From Sphingomonadales bacterium Ga0077557 (GTDB lineage Bacteria; Pseudomonadota; Alphaproteobacteria; Sphingomonadales; Sphingomonadaceae), in the NCBI GenBank assembly GCA_001464615.1, contig LNFI01000027.1, forward strand, positions 62,001 through 126,000: a DNA stretch of 64,000 nt, in the 5' to 3' direction. A model generated the notes under the pieces. That model was given only the letters and a program-made list of their open reading frames with translations, did no database searches and was not told the DNA's origin. Shown here piece after piece: positions 8,457 to 60,585 of this stretch (position 1 is its first letter; the number at the start of each line of letters is the position of its first letter). The position numbers and the translations under genes were made by a program.

Positions 8457-8568
8457 ACCCCTCCCCTTCAGGGGAGGGGCAGGGGGTGGGGACTTTCAGT
8501 CTCACCGAGACCGACGTGCTTTGGGACTGCCCCCACCCCAACCCCTCCCCTGAAGGGGAGGGGCTTTA
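8457..8568. repeat. Intergenic palindromic element, family B copy 1
   Basis: Two near-identical self-complementary arms, each CCCCTCCCCTTCAGGGGAGG-like, lie in inverted orientation around a core of about 40 bases. It sits between the convergent ends of the helicase and nitroreductase genes, so it could also act as a bidirectional terminator (GGGGCTTTAAT on one side). A second copy is at 10522-10630. Confidence 0.8.
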
Positions 8569-10521: not shown

Positions 10522-10630
10522 TTAGCCCCTCTCCTTCAGGGGAGGGGTTGGGGTGGGGGCCATCCCCCTGGCGCAGCGCTTGTGGACAGCCCCCACCCCC
10601 AAACCCCTCCCCTGAAGGGGAGGGGCTTTT
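10522..10630. repeat. Intergenic palindromic element, family B copy 2
   Basis: Same architecture as the copy at 8457-8568: self-complementary CCCCTCTCCTTCAGGGG-type arm, a GC-rich core, and a second arm ending GGAGGGGCTTTTTC. Placed between the thiolase stop and the SDR start; the right arm followed by T residues could attenuate transcription. The SDR ribosome binding site (TTGGAGGA) begins just after it. Confidence 0.8.
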
Positions 10631-12514: not shown

Positions 12515-12643
12515 TGATGACGTTGGATTGGACAAAACCATAGCCCGTTCGCCCTGAGCGAAGTCGAAGGGCATGCGGAGCACCTGGGCTTCGACTTCGC
12601 TCAGCCCGAACGGGTGTTAGGTTGAATCAACCTAACGTCATCA
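12515..12643. repeat. Palindromic element, family C copy 1
   Basis: Outer inverted ends TGATGACGTT and AACGTCATCA enclose an inner long inverted repeat (CCCGTTCGCCCTGAGCGAAG and its complement around 12600). It fills the gap between the convergent thioesterase and crotonase genes. A diverged copy in opposite orientation is at 33070-33242. Confidence 0.75.
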
Positions 12644-13449: not shown

Positions 13450-13545
13450 CGTCACCCCGGACTTGTTCCGGGGCCCACGATGCAGCAAGCCAACCAGTGG
13501 CGATACTTGCCGCACGGTGGACCCCGGAACAAGTCCGGGGTGACG
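13450..13545. repeat. Long-stem palindromic element, family E
   Basis: Arms at 13450-13477 and 13518-13545 are complementary over 28 bases with one mismatch (CGTCACCCCGGACTTGTTCC core), around a 40-base loop region. It lies between two minus-strand genes, the acyl-CoA synthetase stop and the crotonase start, so any transcript spanning both would carry a very stable hairpin. Confidence 0.85.
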
Positions 13546-27935: not shown

Positions 27936-28940
27936 GTGCACGGCTGGATCATCCTCGACAAGCCGCTGGGGCTTGGCTCGACACAGGGCGTGTCGGCGGT
28001 GAAGCGGGCCTTGCGCGAGGGCGGCTATGGCAAGTTCAAGGTCGGGCATGGCGGCACGCTCGATCCGCTGGCGACGGGCGTTCTGCCGATCGCGATCGGG
28101 GAGGCGACCAAGCTCGCCGGGCGGATGCTCGACAGCGACAAGGTGTATGAGTTCACGATCGGGTTCGGGGTGCAGACCGATACGCTCGATCTGGAGGGCA
28201 AGGTGATTGCTGAGAGCGATGTGCGGCCGACTTTGGCCGAGGTCGAGGCGGTGATGCCGCGCTTCACCGGGCCGATCGAGCAAGTGCCGCCGGCTTACTC
28301 CGCGCTGAAGGTGGATGGCGAGCGGGCGTATGATCTGGCGCGGGCGGGGGAGGATGTGGTGCTGGCGAGCAGGGGGGTGACGATTCATTCCCTAAAATCC
28401 TCCCCGGCACGGGGAGGGGGACCGTCGGCGCAGCCGATGGTGGAGGGGGTTCACCGCGAGCGCAGCGCTGGTGGAGGGCCCCCTCCACCATTCGCTGAAG
28501 GAGCGAATGGTCCCCCTCCCCGTCCCGGGGAGGATTTGGAGCAAATCACCCTCACCGCCCATGTCTCCAAGGGCACCTATATTCGCAGCCTCGCGCGCGA
28601 CATCGCGCTGGCACTCGGCACGGTTGGCCATGTTACGATGCTGCGCCGGACAAAGGCCGGGCCGTTCGACCTGTCGCACGCGATATCGCTGGACAAATTG
28701 GCGGAACTCAGTAATGCGCGCGGTCTTGAAGACAAACTCCTGCCACTGAGGGCGGGGCTGGACGACATCCCGGCTCTATCCCTCACCCCCGATCAGGCAG
28801 GGCTGCTCCGACAGGGGCGGGTGTTGATCGGGATTGCCGTGAACGATGGCCCCTATTTTGCGATGCTGGAAGATATTCCCGTCGCGTTGGTGGAGGCAAC
28901 CGACCGAGAGGTTCGGGTCGTGCGCGGGTTCAACCTATGA
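27936..28940 (+). CDS. truB: tRNA pseudouridine(55) synthase TruB with an in-frame palindrome insertion
   Basis: A 334-residue TruB starting at GTG. The catalytic Asp43 is in GGTLDPLATGVL; VPPAYSALKVDGERAYDLAR and SKGTYIRSLARD are intact, and a C-terminal PUA-like part follows. Between VTIHSL and ITLTAHVSKGTY, where about ten residues are expected, lies an extra Pro/Gly/Arg-rich stretch (roughly Lys154-Asp200). The DNA for it is a copy of palindromic family A, whose other copies are in his intergenic gaps. The frame is open through the element, and flanking conserved strands read normally, so the enzyme probably folds with a protruding loop. Modifies U55 in the T-loop. Confidence 0.93.
   Translation: MHGWIILDKPLGLGSTQGVSAVKRALREGGYGKFKVGHGGTLDPLATGVLPIAIGEATKLAGRMLDSDKVYEFTIGFGVQTDTLDLEGKVIAESDVRPTLAEVEAVMPRFTGPIEQVPPAYSALKVDGERAYDLARAGEDVVLASRGVTIHSLKSSPARGGGPSAQPMVEGVHRERSAGGGPPPPFAEGANGPPPRPGEDLEQITLTAHVSKGTYIRSLARDIALALGTVGHVTMLRRTKAGPFDLSHAISLDKLAELSNARGLEDKLLPLRAGLDDIPALSLTPDQAGLLRQGRVLIGIAVNDGPYFAMLEDIPVALVEATDREVRVVRGFNL
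28394..28537. repeat. Palindromic element, family A copy 1, inside truB
   Basis: Begins AAAATCCTCCCC, ends GGGGAGGATTT; the terminal parts are inverted copies, with inner complementary arms (TGGAGGGGG at 28441 and CCCCCTCCACCA at 28480) and a TTCGCTGAAGGAGCGAA hairpin. About 144 bases, divisible by three, open in the truB frame. Matches 37530-37672 and 38421-38546. Confidence 0.88.
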
Positions 28941-28960: not shown

Positions 28961-29230
28961 ATGACGATCACTGCAGAGCGCAAGGACGCGCTCGTCAAGG
29001 AACATGGCCGCGCCGAAGGCGATACCGGCTCCCCCGAAGTTCAGGTCGCGATCCTCACCGAGCGTATCCGCAACCTGACCGAGCATTTCAAGGATCACAA
29101 GAAGGACAATCATTCGCGCCGTGGGCTGCTGATGATGGTCAACAAGCGCCGGTCGCTGCTGGATTATCTCCGGCATTCGGATGGCCAACGCTATACCGAT
29201 CTGATCGCGAAGCTGGGTCTTCGCAAGTAA
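28961..29230 (+). CDS. rpsO: 30S ribosomal protein S15
   Basis: The 89-residue S15, full length. Family landmarks: [36 protein letters not shown] and [12 protein letters not shown] with the C-terminal IAKLGLRK. Binds 16S rRNA in the platform. Located in its conserved place between truB and pnp, 20 bases after truB, with its own terminator hairpin after it; pnp is then expressed by readthrough or a separate promoter. Confidence 0.98.
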
Positions 29231-29407: not shown

Positions 29408-31762
29408 ATGTTCGATACGAAAACTGCAAGCATCCAGTGGGGCGGCAAGACCCTCACGCTGGAAACGGGTCGCGTTGCCCGCCAGGCTGACGGCGCCGTG
29501 ATGGCGACGCTCGGCGAAACCGTCGTCCTTTGCGCGGTGACTGCCGCCAAGTCAGTGAAGGAGGGCCAGGATTTCTTCCCGCTCACCGTTCACTATCAGG
29601 AAAAATATTCGGCTGCCGGCCGCATCCCCGGTGGCTTCTTCAAGCGTGAGCGCGGCGCGACCGAAAAGGAAACGCTCACCAGCCGCCTGATCGATCGCCC
29701 GATCCGCCCGCTGTTCCCGGAAGGTTTCTACAACGAAATCAACGTGATCTGCCAGGTGCTCAGCTATGATGGCGAAAATGAGCCCGATATCCTCGCAATG
29801 GTCGCGGCATCGGCTGCACTGACCATTTCGGGCGTGCCTTTCATGGGGCCAATCGGTGCCGCGCGCGTCGGTTATATTGACGGCGAATATATCCTCAACC
29901 CCACGCTTGATCAGATCAAGGCAGGCGATCTCGATCTCGTCGTCGCTGCCACCGGTGCGGCCGTGATGATGGTCGAATCCGAAGCCAAGGAACTGTCGGA
30001 AGACGTGATGCTCGGCGCGGTTCAGTTCGCGCACAAGGCGTGCCGTGAAGCCGCCAATGCGATCATTGATCTGGCCGAACAGGCTGCCAAGGATCCTTGG
30101 GAAATGGCCGAACAGGCTGATCTCTCGGCTGCCAAGGACAAGCTGAAGAAGCTGATCGGCAAGGACATTGCCGCCGCCTATAAGGTGACCGACAAGTCGG
30201 CGCGTTCGGGGCTCCTCAACGAAGCCCGTGCCAAGGCAAAGGCGGCGTTTGCCGATGCCAGCCCGCAGGACCAGATGGCCGCTAACAAGCTGATGAAGAA
30301 GCTTGAGGCAGAAATCGTCCGTGGCGCCATCCTCAAGGACGGTACCCGTATCGACGGTCGCACCACCACGCAGATCCGCCCGATCGAGGCGATGGTGCAC
30401 TTCCTGCCCCGCGCGCATGGCTCTGCCCTGTTCACGCGCGGCGAAACCCAGTCGATCTGCACGACCACCTTGGGCACCAAGGAAGCCGAGCAGATGATCG
30501 ATGGGCTGACCGGCCTGTCCTACGAGCGCTTCCTGCTGCACTATAACTTCCCGCCCTATTCGGTCGGTGAAGTCGGCCGCTTCGGTGCGCCGGGTCGTCG
30601 CGAAGTCGGCCACGGCAAGCTCGCCTGGCGCGCGCTCCACCCGATCCTGCCGTCGATGGAGGAATTCCCTTACACGATCCGCGTCCTGTCAGACATCACC
30701 GAGTCGAACGGCTCGTCGTCGATGGCGACGGTGTGCGGCGGTTCGCTGTCGATGATGGATGCCGGTGTGCCGTTGAAGCGCCCGGTCTCCGGCATCGCGA
30801 TGGGCCTGATCCTGGAAGGCAAGGACTTCGCAGTTCTTTCCGACATTCTCGGCGACGAAGATCATCTCGGCGACATGGATTTCAAGGTCGCGGGCACGTC
30901 CGAAGGCATCACCACGATGCAGATGGACATCAAGATCGCCGGCATCACCGAAGAAATCATGCGCGTCGCGCTGCATCAGGCGAAGGAAGGCCGCGCGCAC
31001 ATCCTGGGCGAAATGGCCAAGGCGCTCGACCACACCCGTGAGGAACTCTCGGCTCACGCACCGCGCATCGAGACGATCACGATCGACAAGACCAAGATCC
31101 GTGACGTCATCGGCACCGGCGGCAAGGTGATCCGCGAGATCGTCGCCACCACCGGCGCCAAGGTCGACATTGATGACGAAGGCGTCATCAAGGTCTCCTC
31201 GTCCGACACCGCGCAGATCGAGGCAGCGATTGCCTGGATCAAGGGCATCGTCGAGGAAGCCGAAGTCGGCAAGATCTACAACGGCAAGGTCGTCAATCTC
31301 GTCGATTTCGGCGCGTTCGTGAACTTCATGGGCGGCAAGGACGGTCTCGTCCATGTCAGCGAAATCCGCAACGAGCGGACCGAGAAGGTCGCTGACGTGC
31401 TGAGCGAAGGCCAGGAAGTCAAGGTCAAGGTGCTCGAGATCGATCCGCGCGGCAAGGTTCGCCTGTCGATGCGCGTCGTCGATCAGGAAACCGGTGCCGA
31501 GCTGGAAGATACCCGCCCGCCGCGTGAACCGCGTGAGGGTGGCGATCGTCCGCGTGGTGACCGTGGTCCGCGTCGCGATGGCGATGGTGGCCGTGGTCCC
31601 AGAGGCGAAGGGCGCGGTGATCGCGGTCCGCGTCGTGACGGCGGTGGCGATCGTGGTCCGCGCGGCGAAGGTCGTGGCCCACGCCCTGAGCGTTCGGGTG
31701 GCGGCGATGACGGCCCTGCGCCTGAATTCGCGCCTGCCTTTCTGACGGGCGACCGCGACTAA
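29408..31762 (+). CDS. pnp: Polynucleotide phosphorylase
   Basis: A 784-residue PNPase: two RNase PH-like domains around a helical linker ([38 protein letters not shown]; then second domain with [16 protein letters not shown] and [22 protein letters not shown]), a KH domain ([23 protein letters not shown]) and an S1 domain ([33 protein letters not shown]). Phosphorolytic 3'-5' RNA decay. The last 75 residues are an Arg/Gly/Asp repeat tail ([10 protein letters not shown] units) reminiscent of the helicase tail at 8.3 kb. A terminator follows. Confidence 0.97.
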
Positions 31763-37529: not shown

Positions 37530-37672
37530 AAATTCCTCCCTCAGCTTGGCTGGGGGAGGGGGACCACGCGCAGCGTGGTGGAGGGGCTATCCTCCGCCTG
37601 CCAAGCGCTCTGGCCCCTCCACCATTCGCTTCGCGAACGGTCCCCCTCCCCGAGCAAGCTCGGGGAGGATTT
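37530..37672. repeat. Palindromic element, family A copy 2 (hisH-hisA gap)
   Basis: Occupies the whole gap except five bases. Starts AAATTCCTCCC, ends CTCGGGGAGGATTT directly against the hisA ATG. Inner arms ACCACGCGCAGCGTGGTGG and CCATTCGCTTCGCGAACGG are hairpins. The last GGGGAGGA acts as hisA ribosome binding site. Confidence 0.88.
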
Positions 37673-38407
37673 ATGACCCTCATCGTCTTTCCCGCCATCG
37701 ACCTCAAGGCGGGTCAGGTCGTCCGCCTTGCCGAGGGCGATATGGACCGCGCCACGGTGTACGGCGACGATCCTGCCGCGCAGGCGATGATCTTTGCCAA
37801 TCAGGGCGCGCAGTATCTGCACGTCGTCGATCTAGACGGCGCTTTTGCCGGTGCCTCAGTCAATGGCGAGGCGGTGAAGGCAATTGTCGAGCGCTTTCCA
37901 GGGCATGTCCAATTGGGCGGCGGCATCCGTGACCGGGCCGGGATCGAGCGCTGGTTTGATCTGGGCGTGTCGCGCGTGGTGATCGGCACGGCGGCGCTAG
38001 AGAACCCGGAGCTGGTACGCACGGCGGCGCGTGATTTTCCGGGCGGGATCGTGGTGGCGGTGGATGCCAAGGACGGCATGGTCGCGACCAAGGGCTGGGC
38101 CGATGTCTCGACGGTCGAGGTCGTCGATATGGCGCGACGCTTCGAGGATGCGGGCGTCGCGGCGCTGCTGTTCACTGACGTGGGGCGCGACGGCATGCTG
38201 AAGGGCGCGAATATCGAGGCGACGGTCGATCTGGCGCGGGCGGTGCGGATTCCGGTGATCGCCAGCGGCGGGGTGAAGGGCATCGCCGATATCCACATCC
38301 TGGCGCTGCATGCGCGCGACGGGATTGAGGGGGTGATTACGGGGCGGGCATTGTACGACGGGCGGCTTGATCTGGCGGCGGCACTGAGCGTGGCGGCAGC
38401 GGCGTGA
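37673..38407 (+). CDS. hisA: ProFAR isomerase (phosphoribosylformimino-AICAR-P isomerase)
   Basis: A 244-residue TIM-barrel Amadori isomerase of histidine synthesis. Catalytic Asp in [14 protein letters not shown], and the second in [14 protein letters not shown]; phosphate-binding GGIRDR and ASGGVKG. The ATG abuts the right end of a family A palindrome, whose GGGGAGGA is the only Shine-Dalgarno available. Followed by another copy of the element before hisF. Confidence 0.96.
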
Positions 38408-38420
38408 AGGGGCTAAAGCC

Positions 38421-38546
38421 ATTCCTCCCCGGCACGGGGAGGTGGCAGCCGCAGGCTGACGGAGGGGGGATGCCACAAACGCTGCGCGTGTGGAGAGCCC
38501 CCTCCACCGGCTGCGCCGGTCCCCCTCCCCGTTCCGGGGAGGAATT
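38421..38546. repeat. Palindromic element, family A copy 3 (hisA-hisF gap)
   Basis: Starts ATTCCTCCCCGGCACGGGG and ends CCGTTCCGGGGAGGAATT touching the hisF ATG. It is shorter than the other copies (about 126 bases); the mid-part GGCTGCGCCGGT hairpin differs. Again GGGGAGGA is the ribosome binding site of the following gene. Confidence 0.87.
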
Positions 38547-39323
38547 ATGACCGTCCGTGCCCGCGTCATTCCCTGTCTCGACGTCGCCAATGGCCGCGTC
38601 GTCAAAGGCGTGAACTTTGTTGATCTGAAGGATGCTGGCGACCCGGTCGAGCAGGCGCGCGCTTATGATGCGGCGGGCGCGGACGAGCTTTGTTTTCTTG
38701 ATATCACCGCGAGCCATGAGGACCGGGGCACGATCCTCGATGTCGTACGGCGCACGGCCGAAGTGTGCTTCATGCCGCTGACGGTCGGTGGCGGGGTGCG
38801 GACAGCGGAGGATGCGCGCGCGCTGCTCCTGGCGGGGGCGGACAAAGTGGCGGTCAATTCCGCCGCCGTGTCACGGCCCGAAGTGGTGGCGGACATTGCC
38901 GACCGCTTCGGGAGCCAGTGCTGCGTTGCCTCGGTCGATGCGCGGCAGGTCGAAGCTGGGCGCTGGGAGGTGTTCACCCATGGCGGCAGGCGCGCGACGG
39001 GGATCGACGCGGTCGAACACGCGCTGCGGCTGGCCGAGCTCGGCGCGGGCGAATTGCTCGTCACGTCGATGGACCGCGACGGGACACGATCAGGCTATGA
39101 CCTCGCCCTCATTCGCCTGATCGCCGATCAGGTGCGGGTGCCGGTGGTGGCATCGGGCGGCGTTGGCGGTCTCAGCGATCTGGTCGCGGGCATCACCGAG
39201 GGGCATGCAAGTGCCGTGCTCGCCGCCTCGATCTTCCATTTCGGCGAGGCGAGCATTGCCGATGCGCACGCAGCACTCGCGGCGGCGGGGGTGCCGGTGC
39301 GCACGCCGGTCAGCAACGCTTAA
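38547..39323 (+). CDS. hisF: Imidazole glycerol phosphate synthase, cyclase subunit
   Basis: A 258-residue TIM barrel forming IGP and AICAR from PRFAR with HisH ammonia. Catalytic Asp in [16 protein letters not shown] and in [27 protein letters not shown] and VASGGVGG bind phosphate. Start ATG 38547, three bases after the GGGGAGGA of the palindrome. An in-frame start within the element at 38490 would give repeat-encoded junk and is rejected. Confidence 0.96.
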
Positions 39324-57670: not shown

Positions 57671-57796
57671 CTACCCCGCAATCCCCCCGGCAGCCAGCAC
57701 CGCCAGCGTCACGAGTTCGCTCGCGGTGCTCGTCATCGGGGCGATCTGGACGCTCTTTTCCATGCCGACCAGCATCGGGCCGATCACTGCATCACC
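57671..57796 (-). pseudogene. Isolated copy of the 3' end of maeB
   Basis: The minus strand here encodes the same last 41 residues as maeB (ending TLAVLAAGGIAG), then TAG in place of TGA. In those codons there are seven differences from 58324-58446, all synonymous. Homology stops abruptly at 57797. It cannot be expressed alone. With the intact gene it brackets the small lipoprotein gene. Confidence 0.9.
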
Positions 57797-58320: not shown

Positions 58321-60585
58321 TCACCCAGCAATCCCCCCGGCAGCCAGCACCGCCAGCGTGACCAGCTCACTCGCGGTGCTCGTCATCGGGGCGATCTGGA
58401 CGCTCTTTTCCATGCCGACCAGCATCGGGCCAATCACTGCATCGCCGCCCAGTTCGCGGAGCAGTTTGGCGGAGATGTTGGCGCTTTGCAGGCCGGGCAT
58501 GATCAGCACATTGGCGGGGCCGGAAAGCCGCGCGAAGGGGTAGTTCGCCAACTGGCGCGGGTTGAGCGCCACATCAGGCGCCATTTCGCCTTCATATTCG
58601 AAGCTGACGTGGCGATCGTTCAGGACGCACACCGCATTGCGGATATTTTCCAGCCAGCGCCCTTCGGGATTGCCGAAATTCGAATAGCTGAGGAAAGCAA
58701 CGCGCGGTTCATGGCCCATGCGCTTGGCGACGAGCGCGGTTTGTTCGGCAATGTCGGCGAGTTCTTCCGCCGTCGGGCGTTCGTTGATCGTGGTGTCGGC
58801 CATGAACACGGTGTGCTTGGCGCCGACCATCACATGCACGCCGAACGCGGTGCGGCCTTTGATCGGATCGATTACGCGCCGCACCTCGCGCATCGTTTGC
58901 GCATAGGGCCGCGTGATGCCAGTGATCATCACATCGGCCTCGCCCAGTTGCAGCATCACCGCGCCGAAGATGTTGCGATCCTGGTTGATCATGCGTTCGC
59001 AATCGCGCAGCAGATAACCGCGCCGCTTGAGCCGTTCGTAGAGAAACTCGACCATCTTGGGGACCAGCGGCGATTTGCGGCTGTTGTGCAGTTCATATGT
59101 CTCGGGATCGGTGACGCCGAGCGCGCGGAGGCGATCATAGACGTCGTCGCGCCCCACCAGCACCGGGGTGCCATAGCCACCCGCCTTGAACTCGATCGCG
59201 GCGCGCAGCACGACTTCCTCTTCGCCTTCGGCAAACAACACGCGCTTGGGGTTGGCGCGCGCGCTTTCATAAGCAAGCGTCAGCACCGAGGTGGTCGGGT
59301 TGAGCCGCGCGCGGAGCGACTGGCGATAGGCTTCCATGTCGAGAATCGGCTTGGTCGCAACGCCCGAATCCATTGCCGCCTGCGCGACTGCAACGGGGAC
59401 GATTTCCATCAGGCGCGGATCAAACGGGGCCGGAATGATGTAATCGACGCCAAAGCTGTGGCGCACGCCGTAAGCGACCGCCACTTCCTCGGGCACTTGC
59501 TGGCGCGCGAGTTCGGCCAGCGCATTGGCGGCCGCAACCTTCATCTCATTATTAATCGCGGTCGCGCGCACATCGAGCGCACCGCGGAAGATGAAGGGGA
59601 AACCAAGCACATTGTTGACCTGGTTGGGATAGTCAGACCGCCCAGTGGCGATGATGACGTCGGGCCGAACGCGCTTGGCATCGGGCGGGGTGATTTCGGG
59701 ATCGGGATTGGCCATGGCGAACACGATTGGCTTGGCCGCCATCTTCATCAGATATTCGGGTGCCAATGCGCCCTTTGCCGACAGGCCCATGAACACATCA
59801 GCGCCGTCGAGCGCTTCCTCCAGCGTGCGGCGATCGGTCTTGGCGGCGTGGGCGGATTTCCACTGGTTCATGTCGCCATGCTCGCGGCCCTGATAGATCA
59901 CGCCGGATTTGTCGCACATGATCAGTTGGTCATGTGGCAACCCCATCGCCTTGATCAGCTCGGCACACGCAATCGCGGCAGCGCCGGCGCCGTTCATGAC
60001 GACGCGGATATCCTTGATGTTGCGCCCGGTGAGGAACAGCGCGTTGATCAGCCCGGCAGCGGCGATAATCGCGGTGCCATGCTGGTCATCATGCATGACC
60101 GGGATTTTCATCCGCTCCTTCAGCGCCTGTTCGATGATGAAGCATTCGGGCGCCTTGATGTCTTCAAGGTTGATGCCGCCAAAGCTGGGTTCCATCAGCG
60201 CAACCGCGTTGATGATCGCATCGGGATCTTCGGTGGCCAGTTCGATATCGATCGCATCAACATCGGCGAAGCGCTTGAACAGCACCGCCTTGCCTTCCAT
60301 CACTGGCTTTGACGCCAGCGCGCCCAGATTGCCCATGCCAAGGATGGCGGTGCCGTTGGAAATCACCGCGACCAGATTGCCCTTGGCTGTATATTCATAG
60401 GCCGCCGCCGGATTTTCATGAATGGCGCGCACCGGCACCGCGACGCCCGGCGAATAGGCGAGCGCCAGGTCGCGCTGGGTGGCCATGGGCTTTGACGCGA
60501 TAATCTCGATCTTGCCCGGCCGCCCCTCCGAATGGAACAGCAGCGCCTCACGCTCGGAAAACTGGACGGTCGATTCATCGGTCAT
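58321..60585 (-). CDS. maeB: NADP-dependent malic enzyme (MaeB hybrid with PTA-like domain)
   Basis: A 754-residue enzyme. N-terminal malic enzyme (about 1-430): YSPGVAVPVRAIHENP, KGNLVAVISNGTAILGMGNLGAL with catalytic Tyr/Lys, and NADP site VMNGAGAAAIACAELI. The C-terminal half (430-754) is phosphotransacetylase-like (VLFAEGEEEVVLRAA) and regulatory, binding acetyl-CoA but usually not active. Oxidatively decarboxylates malate to pyruvate. The last 41 codons exist a second time at 57.7 kb. ATG 60585. Confidence 0.95.
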   Translation of the reverse strand: MTDESTVQFSEREALLFHSEGRPGKIEIIASKPMATQRDLALAYSPGVAVPVRAIHENPAAAYEYTAKGNLVAVISNGTAILGMGNLGALASKPVMEGKAVLFKRFADVDAIDIELATEDPDAIINAVALMEPSFGGINLEDIKAPECFIIEQALKERMKIPVMHDDQHGTAIIAAAGLINALFLTGRNIKDIRVVMNGAGAAAIACAELIKAMGLPHDQLIMCDKSGVIYQGREHGDMNQWKSAHAAKTDRRTLEEALDGADVFMGLSAKGALAPEYLMKMAAKPIVFAMANPDPEITPPDAKRVRPDVIIATGRSDYPNQVNNVLGFPFIFRGALDVRATAINNEMKVAAANALAELARQQVPEEVAVAYGVRHSFGVDYIIPAPFDPRLMEIVPVAVAQAAMDSGVATKPILDMEAYRQSLRARLNPTTSVLTLAYESARANPKRVLFAEGEEEVVLRAAIEFKAGGYGTPVLVGRDDVYDRLRALGVTDPETYELHNSRKSPLVPKMVEFLYERLKRRGYLLRDCERMINQDRNIFGAVMLQLGEADVMITGITRPYAQTMREVRRVIDPIKGRTAFGVHVMVGAKHTVFMADTTINERPTAEELADIAEQTALVAKRMGHEPRVAFLSYSNFGNPEGRWLENIRNAVCVLNDRHVSFEYEGEMAPDVALNPRQLANYPFARLSGPANVLIMPGLQSANISAKLLRELGGDAVIGPMLVGMEKSVQIAPMTSTASELVTLAVLAAGGIAG

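Follow-up and report, generated by a model that had tools for sequence, protein, structure and literature searches.

One and the same loop of TruB is lengthened in many species of Sphingomonas, and different DNA is used to lengthen it: different families of palindromic repeats fill this loop in different species, each in frame. We think it probable that the loop is a permissive pocket that catches spreading palindromic repeats, and that the copy in the stretch of DNA analyzed here (64,000 nucleotides from a Sphingomonadales bacterium, hereafter the window) is one such insertion, by a repeat that we term family A. Until now, protein-coding palindromes were a curiosity of Rickettsia and Wolbachia; those described here are a recurrent, many-family, one-loop phenomenon of free-living bacteria.

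The truB gene of the window is intact, with 334 open codons running across a near-perfect palindrome of 144 bases (AAAATCCTCC...GGAGGATTT), which a prior reading of the sequence alone had correctly located. Based on Pfam matches, the genes rbfA, truB, rpsO and pnp are all co-oriented in the window. The features referred to below are:

27936..28940, + strand: truB, 334 aa, GTG start, with the insert in frame (ORF, Pfam and PDB matches)
28394..28537, + strand: family A palindromic element, 144 bp, which reads SSPARGGGP...GPPPRPGEDL (about residues 153-201; sequence, folds, genome copies and empty relatives)
28398..28417, no strand assigned: left terminal hairpin, TCCTCCCCGGCACGGGGAGG (sequence)
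28515..28534, no strand assigned: right terminal hairpin, CCTCCCCGTCCCGGGGAGGA, complement of the left arm (sequence; pairing in RNA and DNA folds)
28961..29230, + strand: rpsO (ribosomal protein S15), the gene directly downstream of truB (ORF, Pfam)
29408..31762, + strand: pnp (polynucleotide phosphorylase) (ORF, Pfam)
37553..37672, no strand assigned: family A copy whose end GGGGAGGATTT abuts the ATG of ORF 37673-38407 (BLAST; contig 27: 99553-99672)
38423..38546, no strand assigned: family A copy whose end GGGGAGGAATT abuts the ATG at 38547 (BLAST; contig 27: 100423-100546)

In the window TruB the TruB_N domain (residues 33-155) and the TruB_C_2 domain (residues 217-272) lie on either side of the insert, which is flanked by VTIHSL and SKGTYIR. 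This bears out the sequence-only reading, which had placed the insert within truB between VTIHSL and SKGTYIR(SLA) with the frame left open; its gain of about 47 residues stands as an in-frame lengthening but not as an exact size, since 144 nt amount to 48 codons. The top PDB matches of the protein, both by sequence and by fold, are TruB structures, and the alignment with PDB TruB chains is interrupted exactly at the insert. An AlphaFold2 model built from 30 sequences (the window and named genomes; mean pLDDT 78.4, pTM 0.67) best matches PDB entry 1k8w (E 9.2e-27), an E. coli TruB with a T stem-loop. A structural prediction of the loop had been proposed along with the prior reading, and this model puts the insert after strand 146-155 and before strand 203-210 of a β-hairpin, with pLDDT <50 at residues 160-191. 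The insert is thus predicted to be a disordered filling of the β-hairpin loop.

The ends of family A are complementary over their full length, and two side hairpins and a central stem lie inside. Folded as RNA, the stretch 28385-28545 reaches -127.1 kcal/mol (z -12.2, equaled by 0 of 200 shuffles), and the same stretch folded as DNA gives a z of -11.2. A search of the genome for further copies, which the sequence-only reading had suggested, recovered 42 BLAST matches to the 144-base query (both strands counted) at about 20 places, and a general motif for the left hairpin with one free base matched 22 times across both strands. The two further copies that had been claimed in the window do exist, both directly before an ATG (GGGGAGGATTT-ATG and GGGGAGGAATT-ATG at their right ends) and beside genes that we take to be his genes. 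Their GGGGAGGA ends stand at the ribosome-binding position before the start codons, and the suggestion that they serve as ribosome binding sites is plausible from the sequence.

At the other family A places the overlying ORFs were inspected, and 20 such ORFs were scanned with Pfam. The copy in valS accounts for 34 residues (501 to 536) as against a 2-residue gap in the Thermus ValRS (475 to 478). Another copy is held in the linker of a methylmalonyl-CoA mutase, where the human enzyme lacks an equivalent of residues 497-536, and a 46-base match between the domains of an MmeI-like protein is a candidate insertion. In six more genes the copy precedes the matched domain, and the true start may be downstream of the copy. 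Across the 13 complete copies of this genome, the truB one included, 63 of 78 frames are open, as against 49.6 in 300 dinucleotide shuffles (sd 4.0, maximum 62, with 0 of 300 reaching 63), although arm symmetry makes the frames of a copy non-independent. The core length is a multiple of three in 5 of the 13. Given these open frames and core lengths, a random copy may well be harmless inside a gene. The sequence-only reading had gone further and regarded the element as selected to be harmless in coding DNA; the excess of open frames agrees with this, but design does not follow from it, as in-frame inserts would be left behind, without any such selection, if out-of-frame ones were simply purged from an important gene.

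The TruB search covered 201 evenly sampled genomes of the genus (Sphingomonas, as identified by coordinates in common with named records), 249 genomes from the family, 190 from the class and named genomes besides. We could place 188 of the 201 genus genomes, 18 of these by match length alone. Out-of-frame inserts are possible among the 13 unplaced ones, which include G088, where the two TruB parts lie in different open frames, the fragmented G161 (80% complete), G138, matched in its second half only, and G187, with Ns in the element. Two rows were dropped or held doubtful, namely L228 (truB at a contig end) and L200, a second truB copy of G169 (C6, with a TGA, apparently a pseudogene) that exists besides L169 (C2). 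Runs of N also lie within the truB palindrome in L391 (G187) and L131, and the hairpin seems to break assemblies.

Among the 188 readable genus loops, 113 have at least 30 codons (counting the 52-residue loop of L212, which holds no recognized repeat), 61 fall in the range 16-29 and 14 do not exceed 15. The distance from GTLDP to KGTY is about 131 residues in empty Sphingomonas TruBs, from which the family A insert is absent, and 172 in the window TruB. It is 130-131 residues in all 15 readable outgroup alphaproteobacterial TruBs (of 28 loci) and 130-134 in 11 readable of 19 further loci; the one exception is L410 (G532, which belongs to a different family of the class), whose loop at this position exceeds the others by about 50 residues. 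Palindromic inserts in TruB are also found in other genera of the family (for example, L334, L335, L340, L348 and L355). As a separate observation, other Sphingomonadaceae genera have a conserved loop ending in GRPDPYDPxAPLELADAVTL that is not obviously palindromic (L344-L370; 20 of 59 readable loci and the variant L360), ahead of which a palindromic repeat is added in L348, L352, L354 and L355.

In 193 distinct TruBs the part before the loop spans 148-155 residues in 191 (one has 164, and for L102 the reading extends upstream of the start), and the part behind the loop 127-136 residues in 192, the remaining one lying at a contig end. This scant variation on both sides indicates that long insertions are confined to one loop. 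No stop codon occurs in the loop of any of the 159 distinct insert-bearing TruBs, and the loops were read between two motifs in one frame, by which lengths that are multiples of three are partly built in. Many relatives have loops of similar length occupied by unrelated DNA, a result that the sequence-only reading had set against its own claim. It counts only half against that claim, since the unrelated DNA consists of palindromic repeats of other families, which strengthens the insertion reading. The in-frame lengthening of TruB by an inserted palindrome is upheld.

By motif rules we distinguished 10 family/frame classes, all at this loop, among the 193 distinct TruBs (159 with at least 30 codons): family A in frame 0 (65) and frame 1 (40), B1 (15), B2 (10), B3 (5), B4 (4), B5 (3), C (4), D (5), E (4), B3+A (1), a compound A (1), unclear (2) and short (34). 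A few labels are doubtful (L066), and those of L032, L086, L199, L203, L206, L190 and L170 were changed by hand. All five B classes start with CGTCA and may represent one superfamily. Compound inserts, such as that of L187, are present. For the B1 insert of L090, 54 matches turned up in the genome that carries it, mostly over the insert part of the query. A strong fold (z < -3) was found in 148 of 158 inserts (median -7.9), as against 2 of 158 control windows taken upstream in these genes (median -0.3); the other 10 inserts lie at z > -3, suggesting that the fold has been lost in some. At the blastn setting used, the other classes have no similarity to family A. The two reading frames of family A cannot stem from one insertion that diverged by substitutions. 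Types A, B1, C and E all occur as repeats in the window, with families named by our own reading; outside truB, inverted repeats labeled in the same way as types C, B1 and E lie at 12515-12643, 13450-13545, 8523-8565 and 10524-10566. The window also has a direct repeat of 124 nt, 94% identical and 650 bases apart (57673-57796 and 58323-58446).

A FastTree tree was built from some 277 columns of the TruB core, a single protein. With every branch taken at face value, this tree implies a minimum of 86-87 class changes; with insert-bearing rows only, the number is 53 at support of at least 90 or 34 at support of at least 95. These counts are approximate, as a greedy cover was used at unresolved nodes, and any transfer of truB among species would make them too high. 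Pairs with at least 90% core identity (L102 and L212 set aside) differ in class in 120 of 356 cases. Even TruBs about 98% identical outside the loop may differ in family or carry none. L023, with family A, and L122, with none, are 98.6% identical outside the loop and both recorded as S. sanguinis. L115, with B1, is 98.2% identical outside the loop to L024 and L030, with family A, and has the same short tail after the insert. The short loops of several species keep scars: scar-like sequences are seen in L107 (SSPELHSGETL) and L134 (SSPTVRDGPPSGAGEEL), SSP or GEEL ends are kept in L107, L134, L216, L220, L224 and L226, and RHP is kept in L112 and L140.

TruB is not unique in this respect, given that a loop of ValRS is likewise two-state. 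In the stretch after ATMGWP, 21 of 30 loci were readable, of which 9 have 48-56 residues and 12 have 15-17, and the long loops resemble D or E type repeats. The ValRS of the window's own genome (L272 / L153) has two palindromic inserts, family A after ATMGWPEKQ and an E type after FCDWYLELIKP, and relatives vary at both. Between these two surveyed genes, TruB is the more often hit.

Families tend to sit in truB of those genomes that hold many copies of them. We counted the family A hairpin TCCTCCCCGGNACGGGGAGG in all 201 genus genomes, with the reversed pattern as a control; the hairpin was found in 157 and the control was 0 throughout. The median count is 25 in the 80 genomes with family A in truB, 6 in the 33 with another family and 1 in the 75 with a short loop (Mann-Whitney p 8e-17 between family A and short loop, and 8e-8 and 0.02 for the other two comparisons, uncorrected for kinship). 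This pattern agrees with supply-driven insertion at a tolerant place. Load alone does not account for it, however, as some genomes have short loops despite many copies and 3 of the 80 with family A in truB have no exact hairpin match.

A group of 16 related TruBs (L009-L073) shares one family A insert that can be aligned over its full length. Corrected pN/pS is 0.66 over the insert as against 0.04 in the N-terminal core, suggesting that the encoded peptide is loosely held. The arms show a pS of 0.021 and a pN of 0.049, the middle of the insert 0.099 and 0.114, and the tail beside it 0.488 and 0.195, with a core pS of 0.22-0.43. Column differences are 0.037 at paired and 0.229 at unpaired positions of the element and 0.313 in the tail. 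Among the 816 pair cells, no change is seen in 787, a one-sided change in 11 and a broken pair in 17; a search for a compensatory signal in this insert found a two-sided change in 1 cell only. Intact inserts of other clades likewise diverge less than 4-fold sites of their cores (0.042 vs 0.220, 0.052 vs 0.222, 0.081 vs 0.212, 0.106 vs 0.204, 0.118 vs 0.287 and 0.157 vs 0.291), whereas in two decayed groups the divergence is close to that of the core (0.150 vs 0.134 and 0.190 vs 0.151). Furthermore, the 3' part of truB in the 16 TruBs (about 28700-28940 in the window) shows a fall in synonymous divergence from about 0.3-0.4 in the initial part of the gene to 0.006-0.063 over the last 75 or so codons before rpsO, to which the low C-terminal pS of 0.104 in a first S. 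faeni comparison was traced; this suggests an overlapping signal or recombination.

We can sketch how a permissive pocket would come to be filled. Palindromes would insert genome-wide by the action of some enzyme, and selection on an important gene would remove out-of-frame or damaging insertions, leaving those tolerated as a floppy surface extension. The inserts would then decay or shrink in frame, and could be replaced by another. The element is most likely useless for TruB. The strongest result against so simple a selfish reading is the conservation of the arms, with a pS far below that of neutral-looking neighbors, which selection on the stem or homogenization could explain and for which passive decay alone would not do. 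The stem might be selected as nucleic acid, for processing, pausing or stability of a truB-rpsO-pnp transcript, with the families as interchangeable suppliers. The arms are indeed conserved at both synonymous and non-synonymous sites, with paired columns far quieter than unpaired ones or the tail, intact inserts of other clades fall below their core 4-fold divergence, and unrelated families replace each other at the same spot. We nevertheless regard such selection as unlikely, for the 75 short loops among 188 genus genomes show the stem to be dispensable, the pair cells lack a compensatory signal, the fold is lost in 10 inserts, and the correlation with family A load matches supply rather than demand. 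A related but rather improbable proposal is that of a maintained landing pad, in which the genus would keep a strong hairpin in truB-rpsO-pnp, supplied by any palindrome family and held by nucleic-acid selection until swapped; the case for it is an arm pS of 0.02 beside neighbors of 0.2-0.5.

Homogenization of the arms in an otherwise passive element, by gene conversion with other copies or by template switching from arm to arm, would agree with the numerous copies per genome, their near-identical terminal hairpins and the quiet of the arms at both kinds of sites. Copying from arm to arm should, however, leave two-sided changes, of which just one was seen, and we consider homogenization quite unlikely. 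That the TruB site is a sequence-preferred target of the insertion enzyme, beyond mere tolerance, might be argued from the choice of one loop for every recognized insert of several families, but these families have different ends, ValRS and other genes are also hit, and the window's own genome has no RAYT-type transposase (PF01797), making this very unlikely. A single ancient insertion throughout the genus, with family differences arising by drift, would account for the plain inheritance within clades, such as that of the 16 TruBs aligned across the full insert. It is extremely improbable and was rejected on the reading frames, families and close-pair differences: family A occurs in two frames, the other classes show no blastn similarity to it under the chosen setting, the loop is short in outgroups and in many Sphingomonas, and close relatives differ in family. 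An artifact of sequencing or assembly was also rejected, as many independent genomes show this loop filled.

The permissive pocket that we favor makes the TruB loop a good natural test case for repeat DNA turning into protein. With free-living, culturable species that show replacements, scars and empty sites, the rates of gain, loss and constraint become measurable, and strain pairs such as L023 and L122 of S. sanguinis are ready for testing the inserted protein against the hairpin. The coincidence of the palindrome with N gaps in truB of L131 and L391 is also a warning to annotators and assemblers. Our literature search, which covered mainly open-access articles, returned no description of the Sphingomonas TruB-loop hotspot. 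As far as these searches show, the scale, the one-loop hotspot, the replacement of families, the scars and the conserved palindrome arms are new. The sequence-only reading had supposed that a sphingomonad case as such may be new, which does not hold: the accessible text of PMC3733652 (2013, Di Nocera and colleagues) already reports REPs in truB of S. maltophilia and of two sphingomonads, Erythrobacter litoralis and Sphingopyxis alaskensis, and in tRNA synthetase genes, those of the latter two species included. The window case is no one-off.

According to the same text, CGTC repeats are mainly alphaproteobacterial, some lie within ORFs, and they have no dedicated transposase. Our B classes resemble them in their CGTCA start and palindromic arms, whereas family A is apparently longer, with four stems, and ends in AAAATCC / GGATTT in place of CGTC. 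GTAG REPs with RAYT are comparable in being short, multi-copy and mostly non-genic palindromes. Family A differs in having no GTAG end, and a RAYT system was rejected for its own genome, where a search for Y1_Tnp (PF01797) found no protein; 7 of the 31 genomes searched have one. Small MITEs, which are non-autonomous repeats, likewise have open frames and become fused to genes, a theme covered in the available text of the reviews PMC2229807 and PMC10969869. The comparison with the RPEs of Rickettsia, drawn in the sequence-only reading, is apt. Family A is found at about 20 places with a fold z of -12 and is inserted in frame in a conserved gene of which relatives lack it, and RPEs are likewise palindromes of about 100-150 bp, in frame in conserved genes of an alphaproteobacterial host, with RPE-1 reported in truB of R. 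conorii (PMC3733652). The present host differs in being free-living and GC-rich, with replacement at one loop in many species, and at least family A seems to differ in sequence. As the accessible part of PMC3767692 has it, different RPE groups occur at similar loci of orthologues, with the choice between a hotspot and common origin left open; for one loop, our data are in favor of a hotspot with repeated acquisition.
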